A stretch of DNA of 64,000 nucleotides from a bacterium (lineage in GTDB: Bacteria > Elusimicrobiota > Elusimicrobia > UBA1565 > UBA9628), in the NCBI GenBank assembly GCA_021822495.1, contig JAKAQO010000001.1:715413-779412 (forward strand). The letters run 5' to 3'. Within the stretch, counting starts at the first letter, position 1. Every line of letters begins with the position of its first letter. Below are positions 4,583 through 52,457 of this stretch, in pieces. A model generated the notes under the pieces. The model was not told where the DNA came from. It worked only from the letters and a program-made list of their open reading frames with translations, and did no database searches. The position numbers and the translations under genes were made by a program.

Positions 4583-7500
4583 CTATAAGAAGTCCTCATC
4601 ATTATACCATATGGGGCTGTCCGGTCTTCGCAAGAAAAGAAGTTGAAACCGGGCTTTTTTTCCTAAAGATTTTTCCAGGGCGCGCAGATAGGTTTCGGCT
4701 TGAGGACGGTAGCGCGCGCGAGCGGATATTTCCTCTTCTTCTGATAGGGGAGGCAAACCAGTTTTATAATCGACGATGATAGTTTCAGTTTCGGTTTGAT
4801 AGACGAGATCAATAATTCCTTTAACGAGAGCGCCTTGATCGGGATAGACAAAAGGAATTTCCCGCCCTAAAATTTTGGCTTTGCTGATTCCCTTGGCCGC
4901 AGGCGCGCGCAAAAATTTCTCGATTAAAGCGGCGGCTTCATCCATTAATTCCGTCTCCAGCAGTTCAGGATTTAGTTGAGCCAAGGAAGCGCTTGCGGCG
5001 CTTATTATTTTTTTTGCGTCGCCTGGATTTTTGAAATCCAAGTTTCTGAGGGCTTCGTGACAAATTTGTCCTAAAAGGGAAGCCCTGTTTTGTTGGGGAA
5101 GGGAATTTTCCTCCTCAAAAAAATCGGTCTGGGTTTGGGTGGGGCTTAAAGACCAGGGAGTTGAGGAGGCGCGCGCAAGTTTAGAGCGATTCTTCCAATG
5201 TATAGCCCATTCTTCGGGTTTGATGGAAATTTTTTTTATCTTTTCTCGCGGAGAGGATTTTGAATTTGTGAGGAGAAAATCGGCGGTTAAGTCTTGCGAG
5301 GAAAGACTCAAGTCTTGCGATAAAAATTGGGAGAAAGAGCGTTTTCCAGGAGAAAAATCCTTGTCCCCTATGAGAAATATTTTTTCCTTGGCTCTTGTCA
5401 ATCCGACATAGAGAAGCCGCAGGACTTCATGAGAGAGCCTTTCTTTCTCGTTGATTTGAAGAAGCGCCATGTTGAGGGAAGCTGCCTTGGCCTTGGGAAG
5501 ATAAAACCCGACCGTTTGCGTTTTCCAGTCCGATAGAGAAAGAGGAATTTCATTGTCTTTTCCCGCCGAAGAGATGCGGGGAATGAAGACGATGGGAAAT
5601 TCGAGGCCTTTGGCTTTGTGGATGGTCAATAAGCGAACGCAGTCAAGGGATTCATCTGCCAGGGGGTTTTCTCCTTCCTCTTCCCCCGATTTGATTTCCT
5701 GGGAGATGCGTTCAATCATTTCCCGAGCGCTGAGGCCTTCTTTCTCGGCGATTTCCTCCGCGAGACGGACGGCTTTGAGGAGATTGGACGCCGATTGGGG
5801 CCCGTGGTAGGCTTTGGCGGCGATGGGCAAAAGAGCGGTTTCCTTGAGCGCCTGATCCAAGAAACGGGGCAAGGGAATTCTTCCGAGGCGTTTGCGGAGA
5901 AAATCGAGAGTTTTTTGTAGAGGGAATGCGCTCTTGGTTTCGCTTTTAAGAGCCGCCAAATCTGAGTCCTTAGTATCACTGAGAGGGGATCGCATGAGCG
6001 CGGTGAGAGATATCTCGTCGGCTGGATTATCCAAGACGCGAATGAGGTTGAGGAAATCGATAAACTCCTGGGAAGAATAGAGCGAATTCTTTAGTTGGGC
6101 GGCATAGGGAATTTGAGCGTCTTTAAAGGCCTCGATGAGATGAGAACTGCCTGTTCGCGTTCTCCAAAGAATGGCTACGTCCTTGTAGCGGAATTTTTTC
6201 TTAGGCCCGCAATTTTCCTGAACCCACCGGCAAATCCACTGGGTTTCCGCTTTTTGAAATTCCTCGGAACTGGCGGAAGGCTTAGAAAAACTGAGTTTAA
6301 CGATCTCAAGGGCGGGCGCGGAACTTAAGGCTTGCGCGGTTTGAAGCTCCTGATGCGCGGCTTGCAGCCCTTTTTCTTCTCTCATTGTTTTAGAAAAAAG
6401 AGAGTTAATAGGGGCTAAGACTTCGGCCTTACTCCTGAAGTTAAGATTTAAGGCCAGGGATTTGGAATTTGGATATGACAAAATTTTTTGCGTGAAATCC
6501 TGGTAAGCGGCGATGTCGGCCCCGCGAAAGCGGTAGATGGATTGTTTGGGGTCGCCCACGACAAAAATCCGGCCCGGGCCCGGACGCGCTTCTTGCCAAT
6601 GATCCGACGCGGAATTGATATCTTCCGCCAGAAAAAAGAGAATTTCTCCTTGGAGGGGATCGGTATCTTGAAATTCATCCACTAAGAAGGAATGGTAGAA
6701 ACGCTTGATTTCATTTCGAATTTTTAAATGATTTTTGAGGAGTTCTCGCGCTTCAATCAAGAGGTTGTCAAAGGAGATAAATCCCGCTTTTTTAAAGGCG
6801 TCGCTGAATTTTTTGCGGAAGGGCGTAAGAAGAAGAGTCGTTTTTTCCACTAAGGCGTTTTTTTCCGGAGAGGATAATCCGACTATCTTTTGCGCGCGCT
6901 CGTAAATCTTTTTTTCATCCGCGTATTCTTCCCACGCCTTCGGCCATTTGGGCCAGGCAGATTTTTGGGTAGACTGATTCCAGTTTTCTGGAATTTCCGG
7001 ATTTTTCAGGCTTCCCGCTTGAATCAACCCTTCAATTTGATTTTGAATATCTGAAAATCTCGCTAGGAAGGCCTTGCTTTGGGGCGCAGGTTTGCCTTCA
7101 GGAATTTTTTTTAATTTTTGCCGCAGGCTTTTGAGGTTCTCCAGGGTCTCTTTTGAGGCATGAATCGCGGGTTCTATGGAAATTTTTGCTTGGCAGAGTT
7201 CTTTAGCAAAGTCCTTTAAATCCTTGATGGCGGCGAATTTAAGAATCAAGAGCCAGTCTTTTTCCCGTGGCGCGGAAGAGCTTAATTCCGAATCCAGCCA
7301 GGCTTCCCATTCCGATTCAAAGAGGCGGTTCAAATTTCGCCCCTCGTCGATTTCAAAGGCCGGGGAAAGCCCCGCTTCGAGGGGATAGAGCCTGAGAATT
7401 CGGGCCATAAAGGAATGAAAGGTTTCAATGGGAGCGCGTTCAATTAAATTGAGGGCCGATGCGGCGCGTTGTTCGATAGTCGCCTGATCTAATGGGAATT

Positions 7501-48551: not shown

Positions 48552-48643
48552 CGGTCAGTGAGACCGAAAAGGCAAACCTTTCGCAAGGGAGGGGCGCAAA
48601 GCGCGGGGTCCCACGCGGATTGCCCAGCTGCCGAAGGAAACTG
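48552..48643 (+). promoter_or_regulatory. GEMM-type cyclic-dinucleotide riboswitch (c-di-GMP-I class)
   Basis: The sequence carries the GEMM core: AAAAGGCAAACC, a hairpin with a GNRA tetraloop (TTCGCAAGG), GGCGCAAAGC, a second GC hairpin, and GATTGCCCAGCTGCCGAAGG. P1 can form by pairing TCAGT at the 5' end with ACTGA at the 3' end. The Shine-Dalgarno AAGGA of the next gene (48634-48638) lies inside the 3' part of the aptamer, so ligand binding could control translation. The natural ligand is probably c-di-GMP; cGAMP (GEMM-Ib) cannot be excluded by eye. Confidence 0.82.
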
Positions 48644-48647
48644 ATTG

Positions 48648-49284: not shown

Positions 49285-49953
49285 ATGAAAGAGAAGGTTT
49301 GGAGGTCTTGGCCAGCCGTCGGGGTCCTTTTGCTCGCATTAGGCGAGCTTTCCGGAGCTTGGGCCCAAAACCTGGCGTCTGCGCTTCAGCCCTTGCCAGC
49401 CTCTCCTGCCGCAACAAGGAAAAACTGGAACCAGGATTTCAGCCTGGCGCAATCTTCCTCCAGCCGTTTAGACGCGGTCAAATCCGTTTTTCAGGGAAAA
49501 CACTCCCGCGCGGCGAAAGCTTTGCGTGCCGCCTTTCTTCAAGAGCCTCGCGCGTCCATCAGGGCGTGGATGGTGCGGGCGGAAAACCATGCCGCGCCTG
49601 GGCGCCTCAAATTTTTGGAAGCGGCTTTGAAAGACCCCAGCGTCTTTGTGCGGGAAGCGGCGGTAGTCGCCCTGGGCGAATCGGGAAAACCCCAGGCCGT
49701 TTCGGATTTAGCCACGCTCTTATCCTCGGAAACCGATCCGGGAGCCCGGATGACGATTTGTTTTTGGCTCGGACAATTGGGCGGGTCTCAAGCGGTTTCG
49801 GCCCTGTCCCAGGTTTTATCCTCCGACAAAAATCCCAATCTCCGTCTTCAGGCGGTTGAGTCGCTGAAAAAAATAGGGACAGGTGGGGCTTTAAACGCTT
49901 TGTCTTTAGCCGCAAAAGATACCAATCCCCGCGTCCGGGAGGCGGCTCAATGA
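49285..49953 (+). CDS. Secreted HEAT-repeat protein, truncated at the array border
   Basis: The 222-residue product has a signal peptide (VGVLLLALGELSGAWAQ), then HEAT-like helical repeats from about residue 85: LKFLEAALKDPSVFVREAAVVALGE, then LATLLSSETDPGARMTICFWLGQLGG, SQVLSSDKNPNLRLQAVESLKKIG and SLAAKDTNPRVREAAQ. HEAT solenoids bind partners. The protein stops in mid-repeat, where REAAQ should continue into helix B. The stop codon TGA belongs to the first copy of the array's ATGAAAAGTCAATATTGG block, so the gene was cut by that insertion and a longer ancestor is likely. Confidence 0.7.
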   Translation: MKEKVWRSWPAVGVLLLALGELSGAWAQNLASALQPLPASPAATRKNWNQDFSLAQSSSSRLDAVKSVFQGKHSRAAKALRAAFLQEPRASIRAWMVRAENHAAPGRLKFLEAALKDPSVFVREAAVVALGESGKPQAVSDLATLLSSETDPGARMTICFWLGQLGGSQAVSALSQVLSSDKNPNLRLQAVESLKKIGTGGALNALSLAAKDTNPRVREAAQ

Positions 49954-49955
49954 AA

Positions 49956-49961
49956 AGTCAA
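49956..49961 (-). promoter_or_regulatory. Orphan -35 element at the array border (unit A)
   Basis: AGTCAA on the plus strand is TTGACT on the minus strand, the conserved -35 that drives the protein toxin-antitoxin pair in other units. Here the expected -10, 17 bases away, is replaced by the HEAT gene, so the promoter is broken. Confidence 0.6.
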
Positions 49962-49980
49962 TATTGGTCGAAAGAGGCGG

Positions 49981-50015
49981 GAAAAGAAAGCGGCGCCCCA
50001 ATTTCAGGCGCCGCC
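49981..50015 (-). terminator. Terminator of unit A antisense RNA
   Basis: GCGGCGCC and GGCGCCGC (49990-49997 and 50007-50014) pair and, on the minus strand, are followed by TTTCTTTT. Confidence 0.85.
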
Positions 50016-50057
50016 TTGACTACAGGGAGAATTCCGGTAACTCTGGAACTCCTTGCT
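49982..50057 (-). ncRNA. Antisense RNA of unit A
   Basis: A minus-strand promoter with TTGACA (50087-50092), a 17-base spacer and TATACT (50064-50069) is close to consensus. The predicted RNA of about 76 bases begins near 50057 and ends at the terminator. It contains GCAAGGAG (50049-50056), complementary to positions 25-32 of tRNA-like A, and TCCCTGTAGTC (50018-50028), complementary to positions 34-44. The two antisense blocks are in swapped order, so both cannot pair as one continuous helix. No coding frame is evident. Confidence 0.7.
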
Positions 50058-50063
50058 TTTTCT

Positions 50064-50092
50064 AGTATAGCCTACGAGAGTAAAATTGTCAA
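50064..50092 (-). promoter_or_regulatory. Sigma70 promoter of antisense RNA A
   Basis: TTGACA, 17 bases, TATACT on the minus strand. The -35 is directly next to the 8-bp hairpin at 50093-50128. Confidence 0.85.
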
Positions 50093-50128
50093 GGAGCGGT
50101 TGCCGGATTTACAGGGATTGACCGCTCC
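50093..50128 (-). other. Anti-anticodon hairpin of unit A
   Basis: GGAGCGGT and ACCGCTCC form a perfect 8-bp stem with a 20-base loop. On the minus strand the loop is antisense to the anticodon arm of tRNA-like A (matches TTGCCG and TACAGGGAT on the tRNA strand). It starts seven bases after the tRNA 3' end. Confidence 0.7.
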
Positions 50129-50135
50129 CTACGCC

Positions 50136-50208
50136 TGCCCCGGCTGGGACTTGAACCCAGATCATCCCTGTAGTCGGCAAGGAGCTCTATCCGTTAAGCT
50201 ACCGGGGC
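50136..50208 (-). tRNA. tRNA-like gene A (loop CCGACTA, formal anticodon GAC)
   Basis: A full 73-base cloverleaf: acceptor GCCCCGG/CCGGGGC, T8-A9, D-arm GCTT/GAGC with GG in the loop, anticodon stem CCTTG/CAGGG, T-arm CTGGG/CCCAG with loop TTCAAGT, discriminator A. The body resembles tRNA-Arg. The seven-base anticodon loop has C at 33 and T at 37, both very unusual for a working tRNA; the formal anticodon GAC would be Val. No CCA is encoded. A decoding role is doubtful. Confidence 0.7.
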
Positions 50209-50217
50209 CTACTCTTT

Positions 50218-50244
50218 ATACGGGTAAACCCGCAAAAAAGTTCC
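50218..50244 (-). promoter_or_regulatory. ECF-like promoter of tRNA-like A
   Basis: On the minus strand GGAAC, 17 bases, CGTAT. GGAAC is the typical -35 of ECF sigma factors; the same pair and spacing occur in all four units. The transcript would start within a few bases of the tRNA 5' end. Confidence 0.6.
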
Positions 50245-50246
50245 CC

Positions 50247-50314
50247 AAAAAGGGGACAGTCCCCTTTTTCTTAACAGAAGCCGGAAAAGCGGAAAAAAGG
50301 GACAGTTCCCTTTT
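50247..50314. repeat. Two REP-like palindromes
   Basis: AAAAAGGGGACAGTCCCC plus TTTTT at 50247-50269 is an almost perfect palindrome; a degenerate form with GGGACAGTTCCC lies at 50293-50314. They belong to the same family as the copies at 36341 and 52411. Confidence 0.75.
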
Positions 50315-50330
50315 AAGCGCGGTGGTGGGT

Positions 50331-50465
50331 TTAGCGGTAGATTTCTTTTCGATGGCCGACCGCGAGCACAAAAATACGGTGTTCCGAGTCATTGATGGAA
50401 TAAATAATCTGGTAATCCCCAACCCTCAACCGACAGTCTTCAGTATTTTGAAGTTTTTTGCTACC
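50331..50465 (-). pseudogene. RelE/ParE-family toxin, C-terminal remnant
   Basis: The frame encodes DCRLRVGDYQIIYSINDSEH and then RIFVLAVGHRKEIYR before a stop: the C-terminal strands of a RelE toxin with the invariant LRVGDYR-type strand and the catalytic-region HRKEIYR end. The N-terminal half is missing. The break at about 50465 joins directly to the conserved TCGAAAGAGGCGGG block of unit B, where the TTGACT promoter and the relE 5' half should be, so a deletion removed both. No antitoxin gene remains. Confidence 0.8.
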
Positions 50466-50489
50466 GAAAGGTCGAAAGAGGCGGGAAAA

Positions 50490-50516
50490 AGAAAAAGCCC
50501 CGGTTTCCCGGGGCCT
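50490..50516 (-). terminator. Terminator of unit B antisense RNA
   Basis: A GC-rich stem around a GAAA-type loop (GCCCCGG/CCGGGGC) is followed on the minus strand by TTTTTCTTTTT. The same terminator occurs in units C and D. Confidence 0.9.
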
Positions 50517-50556
50517 TGGGCAACTCTTGGAGAACTTACAGTCCAGCCGTCAACTA
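50490..50556 (-). ncRNA. Antisense RNA of unit B
   Basis: A minus-strand promoter TTGACA (50585-50590), 16 bases, TACAAT (50563-50568) would start RNA near 50556. The first twelve bases, AGTTGACGGCTG (50544-50555), are exactly complementary to positions 29-40 of tRNA-like B (50683-50694), which include the whole anticodon loop. The RNA of about 67 bases ends at the GC terminator. No start codon with a ribosome-binding site is present. Confidence 0.75.
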
Positions 50557-50562
50557 AAGGTT

Positions 50563-50590
50563 ATTGTATCAGATTCCCGCCGATTGTCAA
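50563..50590 (-). promoter_or_regulatory. Sigma70 promoter of antisense RNA B
   Basis: Minus-strand TTGACA, 16-base spacer, TACAAT; both hexamers are close to consensus. Confidence 0.8.
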
Positions 50591-50601
50591 GGGGCGTCGA
50601 G

Positions 50602-50639
50602 CGGGCCGCCACCAGCCGTTTCTGAAGAATGTCGGCTCG
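50602..50639 (-). other. Anti-anticodon hairpin of unit B
   Basis: CGGGCCG and CGGCTCG form a 7-bp stem with one wobble. The loop, read on the minus strand, is antisense to CAGCCGT and CTGAAGA of the tRNA-like B anticodon arm. It begins ten bases after the tRNA 3' end. Confidence 0.6.
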
Positions 50640-50649
50640 TTCTCGGACG

Positions 50650-50721
50650 CTACCGGGGCGGGATTTGAACCCACATCTCTTCAGTTGACGGCTGATCGCT
50701 CTACCGTTGAGCTACCCGGCA
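50650..50721 (-). tRNA. tRNA-like gene B (loop CCGTCAA, formal anticodon GTC)
   Basis: A 72-base cloverleaf: acceptor TGCCGGG/CCCGGTA, D-arm GCTC/GAGC with loop AACGGTA, anticodon stem ATCAG/CTGAA (27-43 mismatched), T-arm GTGGG/CCCGC with loop TTCAAAT. The loop has C33 instead of U. The formal anticodon GTC would be Asp, but the body does not resemble tRNA-Asp. No CCA is encoded. It is probably scored as a tRNA by automated tools. Confidence 0.7.
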
Positions 50722-50736
50722 AGGTCCTATCTCTAT

Positions 50737-50763
50737 ATACGGCCCAATCCGCAAAAAGGTTCC
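50737..50763 (-). promoter_or_regulatory. ECF-like promoter of tRNA-like B
   Basis: GGAAC at 50759-50763 and CGTAT at 50737-50741 on the minus strand, separated by 17 bases. The 27-base segment is nearly identical to that of unit D. Confidence 0.6.
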
Positions 50764-50847
50764 CGGAATTCTTGGGCGTTATCCCGGCGAGGGCCGAAAC
50801 GAGAGAAGGAATGGTCGCCGATTCCAGGAATAGTCAAGATCGTTGGA

Positions 50848-51081
50848 TTAGAGATTGTTTAGAATTCGGGAAAATTCCTCTGGAGTTAGATCAATTTCCC
50901 GAAGGATTTCGCGGATTAAGGGGCGCGATAAATCACGCCTGGGGTGATGGGGGAGGGTCGTGGTTTTTCCGTCATTTCGGCGATAAAAGGCGTGGCTTCC
51001 CTTTTGCCGCGCCTTCTCAAAGCCAAGGGAAAAAAGAACTTTTTAAAGGATTTTTGAGGAGACAATGGGCAGGCGGCTCAC
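50848..51081 (-). pseudogene. hicA: hicA toxin with in-frame nonsense codon (unit B)
   Basis: A GTG overlapping the hicB stop (GTGA) begins SRLPIVSSKIL, then an in-frame TAA (51043-51045, codon 13), then KVLFSLGFEKARQKGSH, then AFYRRNDGKTTTLPHHP and IREILREIDLTPEEFSRI to a stop. This is a complete HicA (about 77 residues, including the catalytic GSH histidine) apart from the one stop codon. The frame does not shift. The toxin is probably inactive, while its antitoxin remains intact. A sequencing error is possible. Confidence 0.8.
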
Positions 51082-51299
51082 GCTTGAATCTGGATCAGTT
51101 GCGTGCCGATGAATTCCGGTATGGGAGCGGAACTTTCTTCGGCTTCTTCAAGGCAAAGGGCAAGGACTTCCTTGAGATTCTCGTTCAGTTCATCCAAGGA
51201 AGCCGCTTGGGTGTGAGCGCCCGTAATTCCAGGGACGATGCCGATATAAAGCCCGCTTTCTGGATCTTTTTCAACGATGGCGGTAAATTGACGGATCAT
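51078..51299 (-). CDS. hicB: HicB antitoxin (unit B)
   Basis: A 73-residue HicB-fold protein: FTAIVEKDPESGLYIGIVPG, then HTQAASLDELNENLKEVLAL and an EESS tail. HicB binds HicA and blocks its mRNA-cleaving activity. It lacks an obvious C-terminal DNA-binding domain. The ATG at 51299 is six bases after TATACT, so the mRNA is probably leaderless. Its partner hicA carries a nonsense codon. Confidence 0.85.
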   Translation of the reverse strand: MIRQFTAIVEKDPESGLYIGIVPGITGAHTQAASLDELNENLKEVLALCLEEAEESSAPIPEFIGTQLIQIQA

Positions 51300-51305
51300 T
51301 GTTCC

Positions 51306-51334
51306 AGTATAACACGACAACCATGAAAAGTCAA
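51306..51334 (-). promoter_or_regulatory. Promoter of hicB (unit C border), leaderless geometry
   Basis: TTGACT, 17 bases, TATACT on the minus strand. Only six bases separate the -10 from the hicB ATG, which places the start of transcription on the A of ATG. Confidence 0.75.
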
Positions 51335-51353
51335 TATTGCTCAAAAAGGGCGG

Positions 51354-51384
51354 GAAAAAGAAAAGGCCCCGGTTTCCCGGGGCC
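51354..51384 (-). terminator. Terminator of unit C
   Basis: GGCCCCGG and CCGGGGCC pair around a short loop, followed on the minus strand by TTTTCTTTTT. It is the same element as in units B and D. Confidence 0.9.
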
Positions 51385-51386
51385 TT

Positions 51387-51433
51387 GGATAGTTCACGCG
51401 AGTCGACTGTTCTACCGGTTGAACTATCCCGGG
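51387..51433 (-). pseudogene. tRNA-like gene C, 5' half fused to an antisense tail
   Basis: The minus strand has an acceptor 5' strand (CCCGGGA), T8-A9, a D-arm GTTC/GAAC with GG in the loop, and the first half of an anticodon stem, then breaks off. It continues into TGAACTATCC, an exact complement of GGATAGTTCA in its own 5' part (51420-51429 against 51387-51396). The 3' half and the sRNA promoter seen in the other units are missing, as if deleted between tRNA and antisense RNA. Confidence 0.65.
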
Positions 51434-51446
51434 TCTCTACCTCTTT

Positions 51447-51473
51447 ATACGGATAAATCCATGAAAAAGTTCC
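51447..51473 (-). promoter_or_regulatory. ECF-like promoter of tRNA-like C
   Basis: GGAAC (51469-51473), 17 bases, CGTAT (51447-51451) on the minus strand, although the tRNA it would serve is broken. Confidence 0.55.
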
Positions 51474-51631
51474 CTGGGATGGAAAGAACGGAAAGGACGG
51501 AAACAAGAGAGAGAAACGGGCTCGTAAAGCCGCTTTCGGCTTCCGTTTTTGCTTTCCGTTCTTTCTTTTGCTTTCCGTTCTTTTTGTTCTTCGCGTTTCT
51601 TCTTTCCGCGCCAAAACCTGCGCGGGTGGAA
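51474..51631. other. Spacer with purine repeats and a signal-peptide-like remnant
   Basis: No gene is supported. The minus strand has direct repeats of GAACGGAAAGCAAAA. On the plus strand a short open stretch reads FLLSAPKPAR, matching the APKPAR cleavage region of the giant protein's signal peptide and its bases almost exactly, so this may be a remnant of the 5' end of a related gene. Confidence 0.4.
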
Positions 51632-51847
51632 TTAAAGGCTTTTGGGGTCCAAACCGGCGTCCGTCAGGATTTTTTTCAGAAGTCCTTTCCCAATGTCGAC
51701 GCCGGTATGGATGGGGACGGTGACGCTTTTTTCTGTTTCAGGATTAAAAAGCGTCAAATGGCTTCCTTTTTGGCGGTCTTTATGGAAACCATTTTTCAAA
51801 AGGAGACGAATCAGTTTCTTCGCGGTAAGGACGGGCAGGCGGCTCAA
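51632..51847 (-). CDS. hicA: HicA toxin (unit C)
   Basis: A 71-residue HicA (YcfA family) mRNA interferase with SRLPVLTAKKLIRLLLKNGF, the catalytic KGSH, VTVPIHTGVDIGKGLLKKIL and a short tail. All family positions are intact. It is co-translated with hicB through a four-base overlap. Toxins of this group cleave mRNA and stop growth. Unlike the copy in unit B, it has no nonsense codon, so this pair is likely active. Confidence 0.92.
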   Translation of the reverse strand: MSRLPVLTAKKLIRLLLKNGFHKDRQKGSHLTLFNPETEKSVTVPIHTGVDIGKGLLKKILTDAGLDPKSL

Positions 51848-52092
51848 GCGGGTATGCCTATGCAGATTTCTTCAACGTGGACTAAGCGCTCCTTGGGAGC
51901 GATTTTTGCGGATCTTTTAGAGAGGGACTCCACATGAAGCTCCAAGGCTTCGCGGATATTGCGGCGGGTTTCTTCAATGGTTTTCCCATTGGAGAAACAG
52001 CCCGGGAGGTTGGGGCAGTAGGCATAATAGCCGGCGCTTCCCTCTTCTTTTTCAATGACGACTTCAAACGGGAAATATCTCATTTTGGCCAT
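51844..52092 (-). CDS. hicB: HicB antitoxin (unit C)
   Basis: An 82-residue HicB-fold protein with FEVVIEKEEGSAGYYAYCPN, then LPGCFSNGKTIEETRRNIRE and HVESLSKRSAKIAPKERL. It has the partial RNase H fold of HicB, without a visible DNA-binding domain. The order hicB-hicA, antitoxin first, occurs in both copies here. The ATG is six bases after its -10, the same leaderless arrangement as in the other copy. Confidence 0.9.
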   Translation of the reverse strand: MAKMRYFPFEVVIEKEEGSAGYYAYCPNLPGCFSNGKTIEETRRNIREALELHVESLSKRSAKIAPKERLVHVEEICIGIPA

Positions 52093-52098
52093 AGAGAC

Positions 52099-52127
52099 AG
52101 TTTAGCAGGGAACCCATGAAAAGTCAA
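52099..52127 (-). promoter_or_regulatory. Promoter of hicBA (unit D border), leaderless geometry
   Basis: TTGACT, 17 bases, TAAACT on the minus strand, then six bases to the hicB ATG. The -35 lies within the repeated ATGAAAAGTCAATATTGG block. Confidence 0.75.
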
Positions 52128-52146
52128 TATTGGTCGAAAAAGGCGG

Positions 52147-52178
52147 AAAAAAGAAAAGGCCCCGGTTTCCCGGGGCCT
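52147..52178 (-). terminator. Terminator of unit D antisense RNA
   Basis: GGCCCCGG/CCGGGGCC stem (52158-52177) with TTTTCTTTTTT following on the minus strand. Confidence 0.9.
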
Positions 52179-52206
52179 GGGCCGTCTTGTTTCCGACCGT
52201 CAATCG
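52150..52206 (-). ncRNA. Antisense RNA of unit D
   Basis: Promoter TTGACT (52235-52240), 17 bases, TATCCT (52212-52217). The RNA would begin near 52206 with CGATTGACGGTCGG, an exact 14-base complement of positions 28-41 of tRNA-like D (52327-52340), covering the whole anticodon loop. It ends about 57 bases later in the GC terminator. As in units A and B it has no coding potential. Confidence 0.75.
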
Positions 52207-52211
52207 CCTCT

Positions 52212-52240
52212 AGGATAGCAGAGAATGGGCCTTTAGTCAA
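52212..52240 (-). promoter_or_regulatory. Sigma70 promoter of antisense RNA D
   Basis: Minus-strand TTGACT, 17 bases, TATCCT. Confidence 0.75.
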
Positions 52241-52248
52241 GAGGGCGC

Positions 52249-52289
52249 GAAAGCCGCATTCCCGACCGTTTCAGATGAATGCGGCTTTC
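52249..52289 (-). other. Anti-anticodon hairpin of unit D
   Basis: GAAAGCCGCATTC and GAATGCGGCTTTC make a perfect 13-bp stem with a 15-base loop. On the minus strand the loop contains ACGGTCGG, complementary to positions 28-35 of tRNA-like D. It begins six bases after the tRNA 3' end. Confidence 0.75.
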
Positions 52290-52295
52290 TCAAGA

Positions 52296-52367
52296 CTGCG
52301 AGGATGGGACTTGAACCCATATCACCCGATTGACGGTCGGAGGTCTTACCTCTTAGACGACCCCGTA
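52296..52367 (-). tRNA. tRNA-like gene D (loop CCGTCAA, formal anticodon GTC)
   Basis: A 72-base cloverleaf: acceptor TACGGGG/CCTCGCA (one A-C mismatch), D-arm GTCT/AGAC, anticodon stem TCCGA/TCGGG, T-arm ATGGG/CCCAT with loop TTCAAGT. The D-arm resembles tRNA-Glu/Gln, yet the loop is the same CCGTCAA as in B, with C33. The formal anticodon GTC is Asp, in conflict with the body. No CCA is encoded. Confidence 0.7.
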
Positions 52368-52380
52368 ATCTCTATTCTAT

Positions 52381-52407
52381 ATACGGCCCAATCCGCAAAA
52401 AGGTTCC
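52381..52407 (-). promoter_or_regulatory. ECF-like promoter of tRNA-like D
   Basis: GGAAC (52403-52407), 17 bases, CGTAT (52381-52385) on the minus strand. Confidence 0.6.
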
Positions 52408-52410
52408 CAA

Positions 52411-52457
52411 AAAAGGGGACAGTCCCCTTTTTCCAAAAAAGGGGACTGTCCCCTTTT
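52411..52457. repeat. Paired REP-like palindromes at the right end of the array
   Basis: AAAAGGGGACAGTCCCCTTTT and, three bases on, its inverse form with CTG in the centre. Together they mark the right border of the array, just before the ribosome-binding site of the giant gene. Confidence 0.85.

Follow-up and report, generated by a model that had tools for sequence, protein, structure and literature searches.

Covarying pairs of tRNA-like and short antisense RNAs in Elusimicrobiota: a candidate damage-induced effector and its putative dedicated antidote

When we analyzed a 64,000-nucleotide (nt) stretch of an Elusimicrobiota genome (assembly GCA_021822495.1, contig JAKAQO010000001.1, positions 715,413 to 779,412; referred to here as the window), three complete units (D, B, and A) and one decayed unit (C) were found on the minus strand between positions 49986 and 52408. 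The order of elements in a unit is a GGGAAC-N17-CGTAT promoter, a tRNA-like gene without an encoded CCA, a hairpin, a sigma70-type promoter, a short RNA gene, and a GC terminator with a T-run. This repeated order had been proposed from the letters of the window alone, and it was confirmed: ARAGORN and Rfam locate the tRNA-like genes, and the promoters, terminators, and antisense stretches are in place. Comparisons among homologous units show, at the level of sequence, that selection acts on the base pairing of each short RNA, through its 5' end, with the anticodon arm of the partner tRNA-like RNA. We consider it probable, though well short of certain, that the tRNA-like RNA is a DNA damage-induced effector that would be held off by this dedicated, constitutively made antisense RNA. 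The original prediction had described a stress-inducible tRNA-like effector of this kind; its wiring and pairing fit all of the measurements, and any effect on the cell is putative.

The short RNAs of units D, B, and A were exactly antisense to their own tRNA-likes over 15, 12, and 11 nt, respectively, as had been claimed for the anticodon arm, whereas ordinary tRNAs at the same loci gave longest antisense stretches of 6 to 8 nt. An 11-nt antisense match within 320 nt is expected by chance at a frequency of only ~0.006. Across 38 units, the mean longest complement was 12.2 nt with the unit's own short RNA and 6.5 nt with those of other units (z = 21), and the predicted binding energy was -15.7 kcal/mol for own partners versus -3.3 kcal/mol for others (z = -21). 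These cross-unit permutations reject chance complementarity. tRNA positions 28 to 36 were Watson-Crick paired in 33 to 38 of the 38 units, and a single position could show as many as four pair types (TA 2, AT 9, GC 19, and CG 6 at position 30; GC 12, AT 4, TA 10, and CG 12 at position 31). As the short RNA gene follows the tRNA-like gene on the same strand, this complementarity is not an automatic by-product of overlap. Homologous units in which the tRNA and antisense sequences do not match had been named beforehand as the observation that would count against the prediction; 37 of the 38 units kept the match, and the sequences covaried.

The short RNAs are 40 to 80 nt long and end in an intrinsic terminator. 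Many of them hold a second segment, absent from the original prediction, that is antisense to the D-arm, and cofolds form both helices. In the best cases, a predicted first helix of ~12 to 15 bp involves the anticodon loop and 5' stem, and a predicted second helix of 9 to 12 bp involves the 5' strand of the D-arm together with positions 8 and 9, skipping the D-loop. Pairing in both places would open the cloverleaf throughout its 5' half. Units of a second type, with Val anticodons and a tRNA-Arg-like body, have three antisense segments, the middle one inside a small hairpin, and in a Ser type the pairing is on the 3' side.

Because pairing is symmetrical, it is silent on which RNA regulates which, and the short RNA could instead be an effector that represses some target, with the tRNA-like acting as a stress-induced sponge that removes it. 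Sponge logic of this sort is known for tRNA-derived spacers such as 3'ETS-leuZ. Nevertheless, complementarity is the only conserved property of the short RNA: its target arm takes 35 distinct sequences among 38 units, and the four short RNAs of the window's genome match the 30 canonical tRNAs recovered there over no more than 8 nt, which also led us to reject the short RNA as a regulator of canonical tRNAs. Conservation lies instead in the tRNA fold and extends to agreement between discriminator base and anticodon, and we regard the sponge arrangement as improbable.

The elements of the four window units are as follows; the tRNA-like genes of units A, B, and D were located by ARAGORN and Rfam.

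52381-52408, minus strand: unit D, extracytoplasmic function (ECF)-type promoter GGGAACCTTTTTGCGGATTGGGCCGTAT, with the motif common to recA and an ECF sigma factor gene
52294-52368, minus strand: unit D, tRNA-like gene with anticodon GUC, loop CCGUCAA, and C33, CCA not encoded
52249-52289, minus strand: unit D, hairpin with ACGGTCGG in its loop, antisense to the 5' anticodon stem
52212-52240, minus strand: unit D, sigma70-type promoter TTGACT-N17-TATCCT
52154-52207, minus strand: unit D, short RNA and terminator; 52192-52206 is the 15-nt exact antisense to the anticodon arm, and the anti-D-arm segment AAGACGGCCC lies 3' of it on the same strand
51447-51474, minus strand: unit C (decayed), ECF-type promoter
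51360-51430, minus strand: unit C (decayed), 5' half of a tRNA-like gene joined by a deletion to the 3' part of the short RNA (anti-D-arm segment and terminator)
50737-50764, minus strand: unit B, ECF-type promoter
50649-50721, minus strand: unit B, tRNA-like gene with anticodon GUC and C33
50591-50648, minus strand: unit B, hairpin region; its loop TCTTCAGAAACGGCTG (minus strand) is antisense to the two strands of the anticodon stem, and the complement of positions 36 to 38 is replaced
50563-50590, minus strand: unit B, sigma70-type promoter TTGACA-N16-TACAAT
50492-50555, minus strand: unit B, short RNA and terminator; the antisense segment AGTTGACGGCTG is 50544-50555
50218-50245, minus strand: unit A, ECF-type promoter GGGAACTTTTTTGCGGGTTTACCCGTAT
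50136-50208, minus strand: unit A, tRNA-like gene of the second type, with anticodon GAC and a tRNA-Arg-like body
50093-50128, minus strand: unit A, hairpin with loop TCCCTGTAAATCCGGCAA
50064-50092, minus strand: unit A, sigma70-type promoter TTGACA-N17-TATACT
49986-50057, minus strand: unit A, short RNA; 50049-50056 (GCAAGGAG) is antisense to the 5' anticodon stem, 50018-50028 (TCCCTGTAGTC) is antisense to the anticodon loop and 3' stem, and a D-arm-like segment lies between the two

REP-like palindromes (AAAAGGGGACAGTCCCCTTTT) stand beside the units at 50248-50269, 52411-52432, and 52436-52457.

The loop of the hairpin between the two genes had also been described as antisense to the anticodon arm. 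Of the 28 units whose spacer is long enough, most bear this out (z = 11); their loops are usually antisense to the two stem strands of the arm, and the complement of approximately positions 35 to 38 is missing or replaced. Given that about 10 units have spacers of 0 to 26 nt, too short for a hairpin, it is common rather than essential, and since hairpin and short RNA have the same sense, the hairpin cannot act as a sponge for the short RNA. Our guess is that it acts in cis on the precursor.

The covariance-model search that had been suggested for related genomes was run with a model of the promoter and tRNA-like on 340 genomes of the phylum, and units were found to recur well outside the window. 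Reading loci individually, we counted 39 distinct units, two Ser-type units (in G004), and one near-duplicate across 16 Elusimicrobiota genomes, with up to seven in one genome; genome-wide counts were obtained with the covariance model and should be taken as lower bounds. True units mostly scored above 82 bits, with some at 67 to 77 bits, and these scores set them apart from ordinary tRNAs. The Ser-type units of G004 and G003, inside the window's order, are real despite low scores. All but one of the 16 unit-bearing genomes belong to the window's order, the exception being G334, from another class, with a single unit; relatives of G334 showed chiefly promoter-like or plain tRNA similarity. The other matches below ~75 bits outside the order that were read were ordinary tRNAs lacking downstream antisense. 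With unit D as the BLASTN query, partial relatives were found within the window's order. A pattern scan of named genomes returned Elusimicrobia metagenome-assembled genomes (MAGs), contigs of the unclassified MAG DBS1-2.bin105, and one actinobacterial match (L113), which we rejected as chance because it contained normal tRNAs only, without antisense. One locus (L091, G028:C40:55000-65000) has a tRNA-like at 5158-5232 followed by two tandem short RNAs, each antisense to its anticodon arm.

Four loci were conserved on both flanks across genomes, namely, the window cluster with G003 and G022; G022 with G230 and G014; G016 with G015; and G022 with G012. At these loci, in different genera, the short RNA changes in step with the anticodon arm. 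The anticodons themselves differ, being UUC, GUC, and GUC in G022, G230, and G014; GAU and CUC in G016 and G015; and AAC and GAC in G022 against GAC in G012. Since the arms differ and the short RNAs follow, selection keeps the pairing rather than a codon or an arm sequence.

This conservation also bears on the idea, raised in the original prediction, that the unit is a mobile cassette or recombination site that targets a tRNA sequence, its complementarity being an inverted duplication left by insertion. Units do occur in several copies per genome, some clustered, and in the window they lie near toxin-antitoxin (TA) genes and repeats. However, their position between the same genes is kept in different genera, and the covarying complementarity lies in separate segments and is retained together with promoters and terminators. 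In addition, the pattern scan found zero units in viral contigs, and BLAST against phage and plasmid records returned short fragments only and no unit-length match. On synteny and covariation we rejected an integron or mobile-cassette origin, which strikes us as very improbable.

The motif of the first promoter also lies upstream of recA in 15 of 20 genomes, in the species' own unit variant (e.g., in G015; P ~ 2e-11 or below relative to a background of ~8%, whose windows themselves include units). In the window's genome, it precedes recA (G000:C9:2841), an ECF sigma factor gene (G000:C4:588913), a RAYT-type (Y1_Tnp) REP-associated transposase gene (L127), and genes for three coiled-coil repeat proteins (L117, L124, and L126), the one of which that was tested had no match in Pfam. 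The motif also lies upstream of RadC-like and Gp49-like toxin genes in relatives. The pattern GGAACTTTTT..CGTATGAATA is too strict for wide regulon mapping. Judged by this shared motif, the first promoter of the units is part of a real ECF regulon, and the presence of recA and the ECF sigma gene among its apparent members places the tRNA-like promoter in what looks like a DNA damage regulon; the inducing stress is thus probably DNA damage. No match to LexA was found in the window's genome, which is 94.7% complete. A DNA damage regulon that is apparently under an ECF sigma factor, in a lineage of Elusimicrobiota where LexA is not detectable, would be a finding in its own right. The antisense RNA, for its part, has a separate promoter of the constitutive type.

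Taken together, these features suggest how the units may work. In the unstressed cell, the short RNA would be made constitutively and would capture tRNA-like RNA that leaks through. Capture would begin at the anticodon loop and then open the cloverleaf by displacing the 5' strand from both the anticodon stem and the D stem. Upon DNA damage, the ECF sigma factor would drive the tRNA-like above the level of the short RNA, and folded tRNA-like would accumulate.

As for what the accumulated RNA might do, the tRNA-likes have intact acceptor, D, anticodon, and T stems along with the tertiary signature bases of a canonical cloverleaf. Their stems are preserved through compensatory changes, as in the acceptor pairs, while the sequence turns over; A14-A15 and U48 are nearly invariant, and the T-loops are normal. 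G73 was present in 22 of 23 GUC units versus 3 of 16 others (Fisher's exact test, P = 9e-7; a statistic that takes no account of shared ancestry), the pattern to be anticipated were synthetases to recognize these RNAs. Because base 73 follows the anticodon, we infer, with less confidence than for the pairing, that the tRNA-like is aminoacylated and may slow or corrupt translation. Mistranslation, capture of a synthetase or of EF-Tu, and ribosome jamming are all possible, and we rank an effect on translation first.

Charging with mistranslation is the most specific testable idea for the effector. The bodies of the tRNA-likes resemble tRNA-Asn or tRNA-Gln (U1-A72) or tRNA-Arg rather than the family of the anticodon, and in many units an Asp or Glu anticodon goes together with U1-A72, which is the first pair in tRNA-Asn and tRNA-Gln of this organism. 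Given that GatA was found in the window's genome, there is a concrete possibility that Asn is inserted at Asp codons or Gln at Glu codons. In its boldest form, which we put forward only tentatively and think more likely wrong than right, chargeable damage-induced tRNA impostors that have Asp or Glu anticodons and GatCAB-type acceptor ends would recode Asp to Asn and Glu to Gln, arresting or diversifying the proteome, each silenced by a covarying antisense RNA that unfolds it, in an SOS-like response under an ECF sigma factor instead of LexA.

The same features could describe ordinary extra tRNA genes that have an unusual regulator and boost the decoding of certain codons under stress. The intact fold and normal T-loop would suit such genes, as would a CUGUCAA loop identical to that of the canonical tRNA-Asp of the window's genome and a G73 that agrees with Asp. 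That reading is nonetheless unlikely, with only the mobile cassette less likely still: the anticodon changes between syntenic loci (UUC/GUC, GAU/CUC), C33 replaces U33 in 16 of 39 loops (41%), the body is not that of the anticodon's family, and a dedicated antisense RNA is present.

A protective role was also considered, in which the tRNA-likes are damage-induced decoys or spare tRNAs, for example, against anticodon nucleases released under stress or in a phage attack, and are simply cleared by the short RNA when not needed. The canonical fold, the several kinds of anticodon (many with G34-U35), and the apparent induction with recA are consistent with decoys, which the original prediction had listed as an alternative. 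Yet no nuclease gene is consistently near the units, an anticodon that serves as bait would not be expected to drift freely at a given locus, and decoys would need no dedicated covarying antisense RNA, which they leave unexplained. We therefore view protection as doubtful, if somewhat less so than the sponge.

Several observations nevertheless weigh against a damage-induced effector silenced by its own short RNA. The frequent C33 argues against efficient decoding, and the shifts in anticodon identity between syntenic loci fit a generic effector better than one dedicated to a single codon. In one unit (L026, G023), the T-arm is damaged and the short RNA matches poorly. Another tRNA-like (L023, G022:C113:1078-1151) has the hairpin without a short RNA gene of its own; by inspection, the short RNA of its paralogue (L024, G022) could pair with it. 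Finally, the tRNA-like of G334 has a sigma70-type promoter, and damage induction is therefore not universal.

The units had further been described as combined with hicBA or relE, and this part of the prediction did not survive. The window has one intact hicBA module, at 51632-52092 after unit D, whose genes are neighbors rather than parts of the core system:

51844-52092, minus strand: HicB-like antitoxin gene (PF15919)
51632-51847, minus strand: HicA toxin gene (PF07927)

Unit C is followed by HicB with a broken hicA, unit B by a C-terminal ParE/RelE fragment only (~50330-50470), and unit A by a promoter remnant only, so that an intact toxin and antitoxin do not accompany each unit as in a type II TA cassette. 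Small genes also adjoin the units on the 3' side in G003 and G004; they were not identified as TA genes, and the one tested had no match in Pfam. Most other units have ordinary genes beside them. A TA link characterizes some hotspots, not the system. Elsewhere in the window, a c-di-GMP-I-GGC riboswitch match (48562-48636), barely over the Rfam threshold, lies 5' of a small-protein open reading frame at 48645.

If the tRNA-like does act on translation, the units would constitute a TA-like system whose toxin is a tRNA and would offer ~40 tRNA/anti-tRNA pairs from nature; they would also indicate that one branch of the phylum runs its DNA damage response via an ECF sigma factor. In agreement with the original prediction, we found no description of a tRNA-like/antisense pair of this form, nor of dedicated antisense RNAs that evolve in step with individual tRNA-like genes, in the literature searched, which included few subscription journals. 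RNAs that pair with or near tRNA sequences are known, as in the 3'ETS-leuZ spacer sponges and T-box RNAs, whereas in these units the small RNA is dedicated to one adjacent tRNA-like, whose anticodon and D arms it pairs with. SdsR and RyeA are overlapping antisense transcripts, unlike the pairs of these units, which are encoded apart and covary. With these and with CreTA, the type VIII RNA-RNA TA systems, the units share the property that both partners, here predicted ones, are RNAs (PMC8501985, PMC10097628). CreT acts on translation by sequestering a tRNA, but it is not tRNA-like, and CreA needs Cascade (PMC8501985, PMC10097628), whereas no CRISPR-like repeat was seen at the units. The proposed wiring is that of tisB/istR-1, which like symE/symR is an SOS-induced type I TA pair (PMC2826370, PMC1891008); in these chromosomal systems, the effector has a damage-induced promoter and is inactivated by pairing with an adjacent antisense RNA. 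In contrast to these, toxicity is only putative here, the effector and antisense genes follow one another on one strand, an ECF sigma factor apparently takes the place of LexA as regulator, and the target is not an mRNA for a small toxic protein but a tRNA-like RNA without a reading frame.

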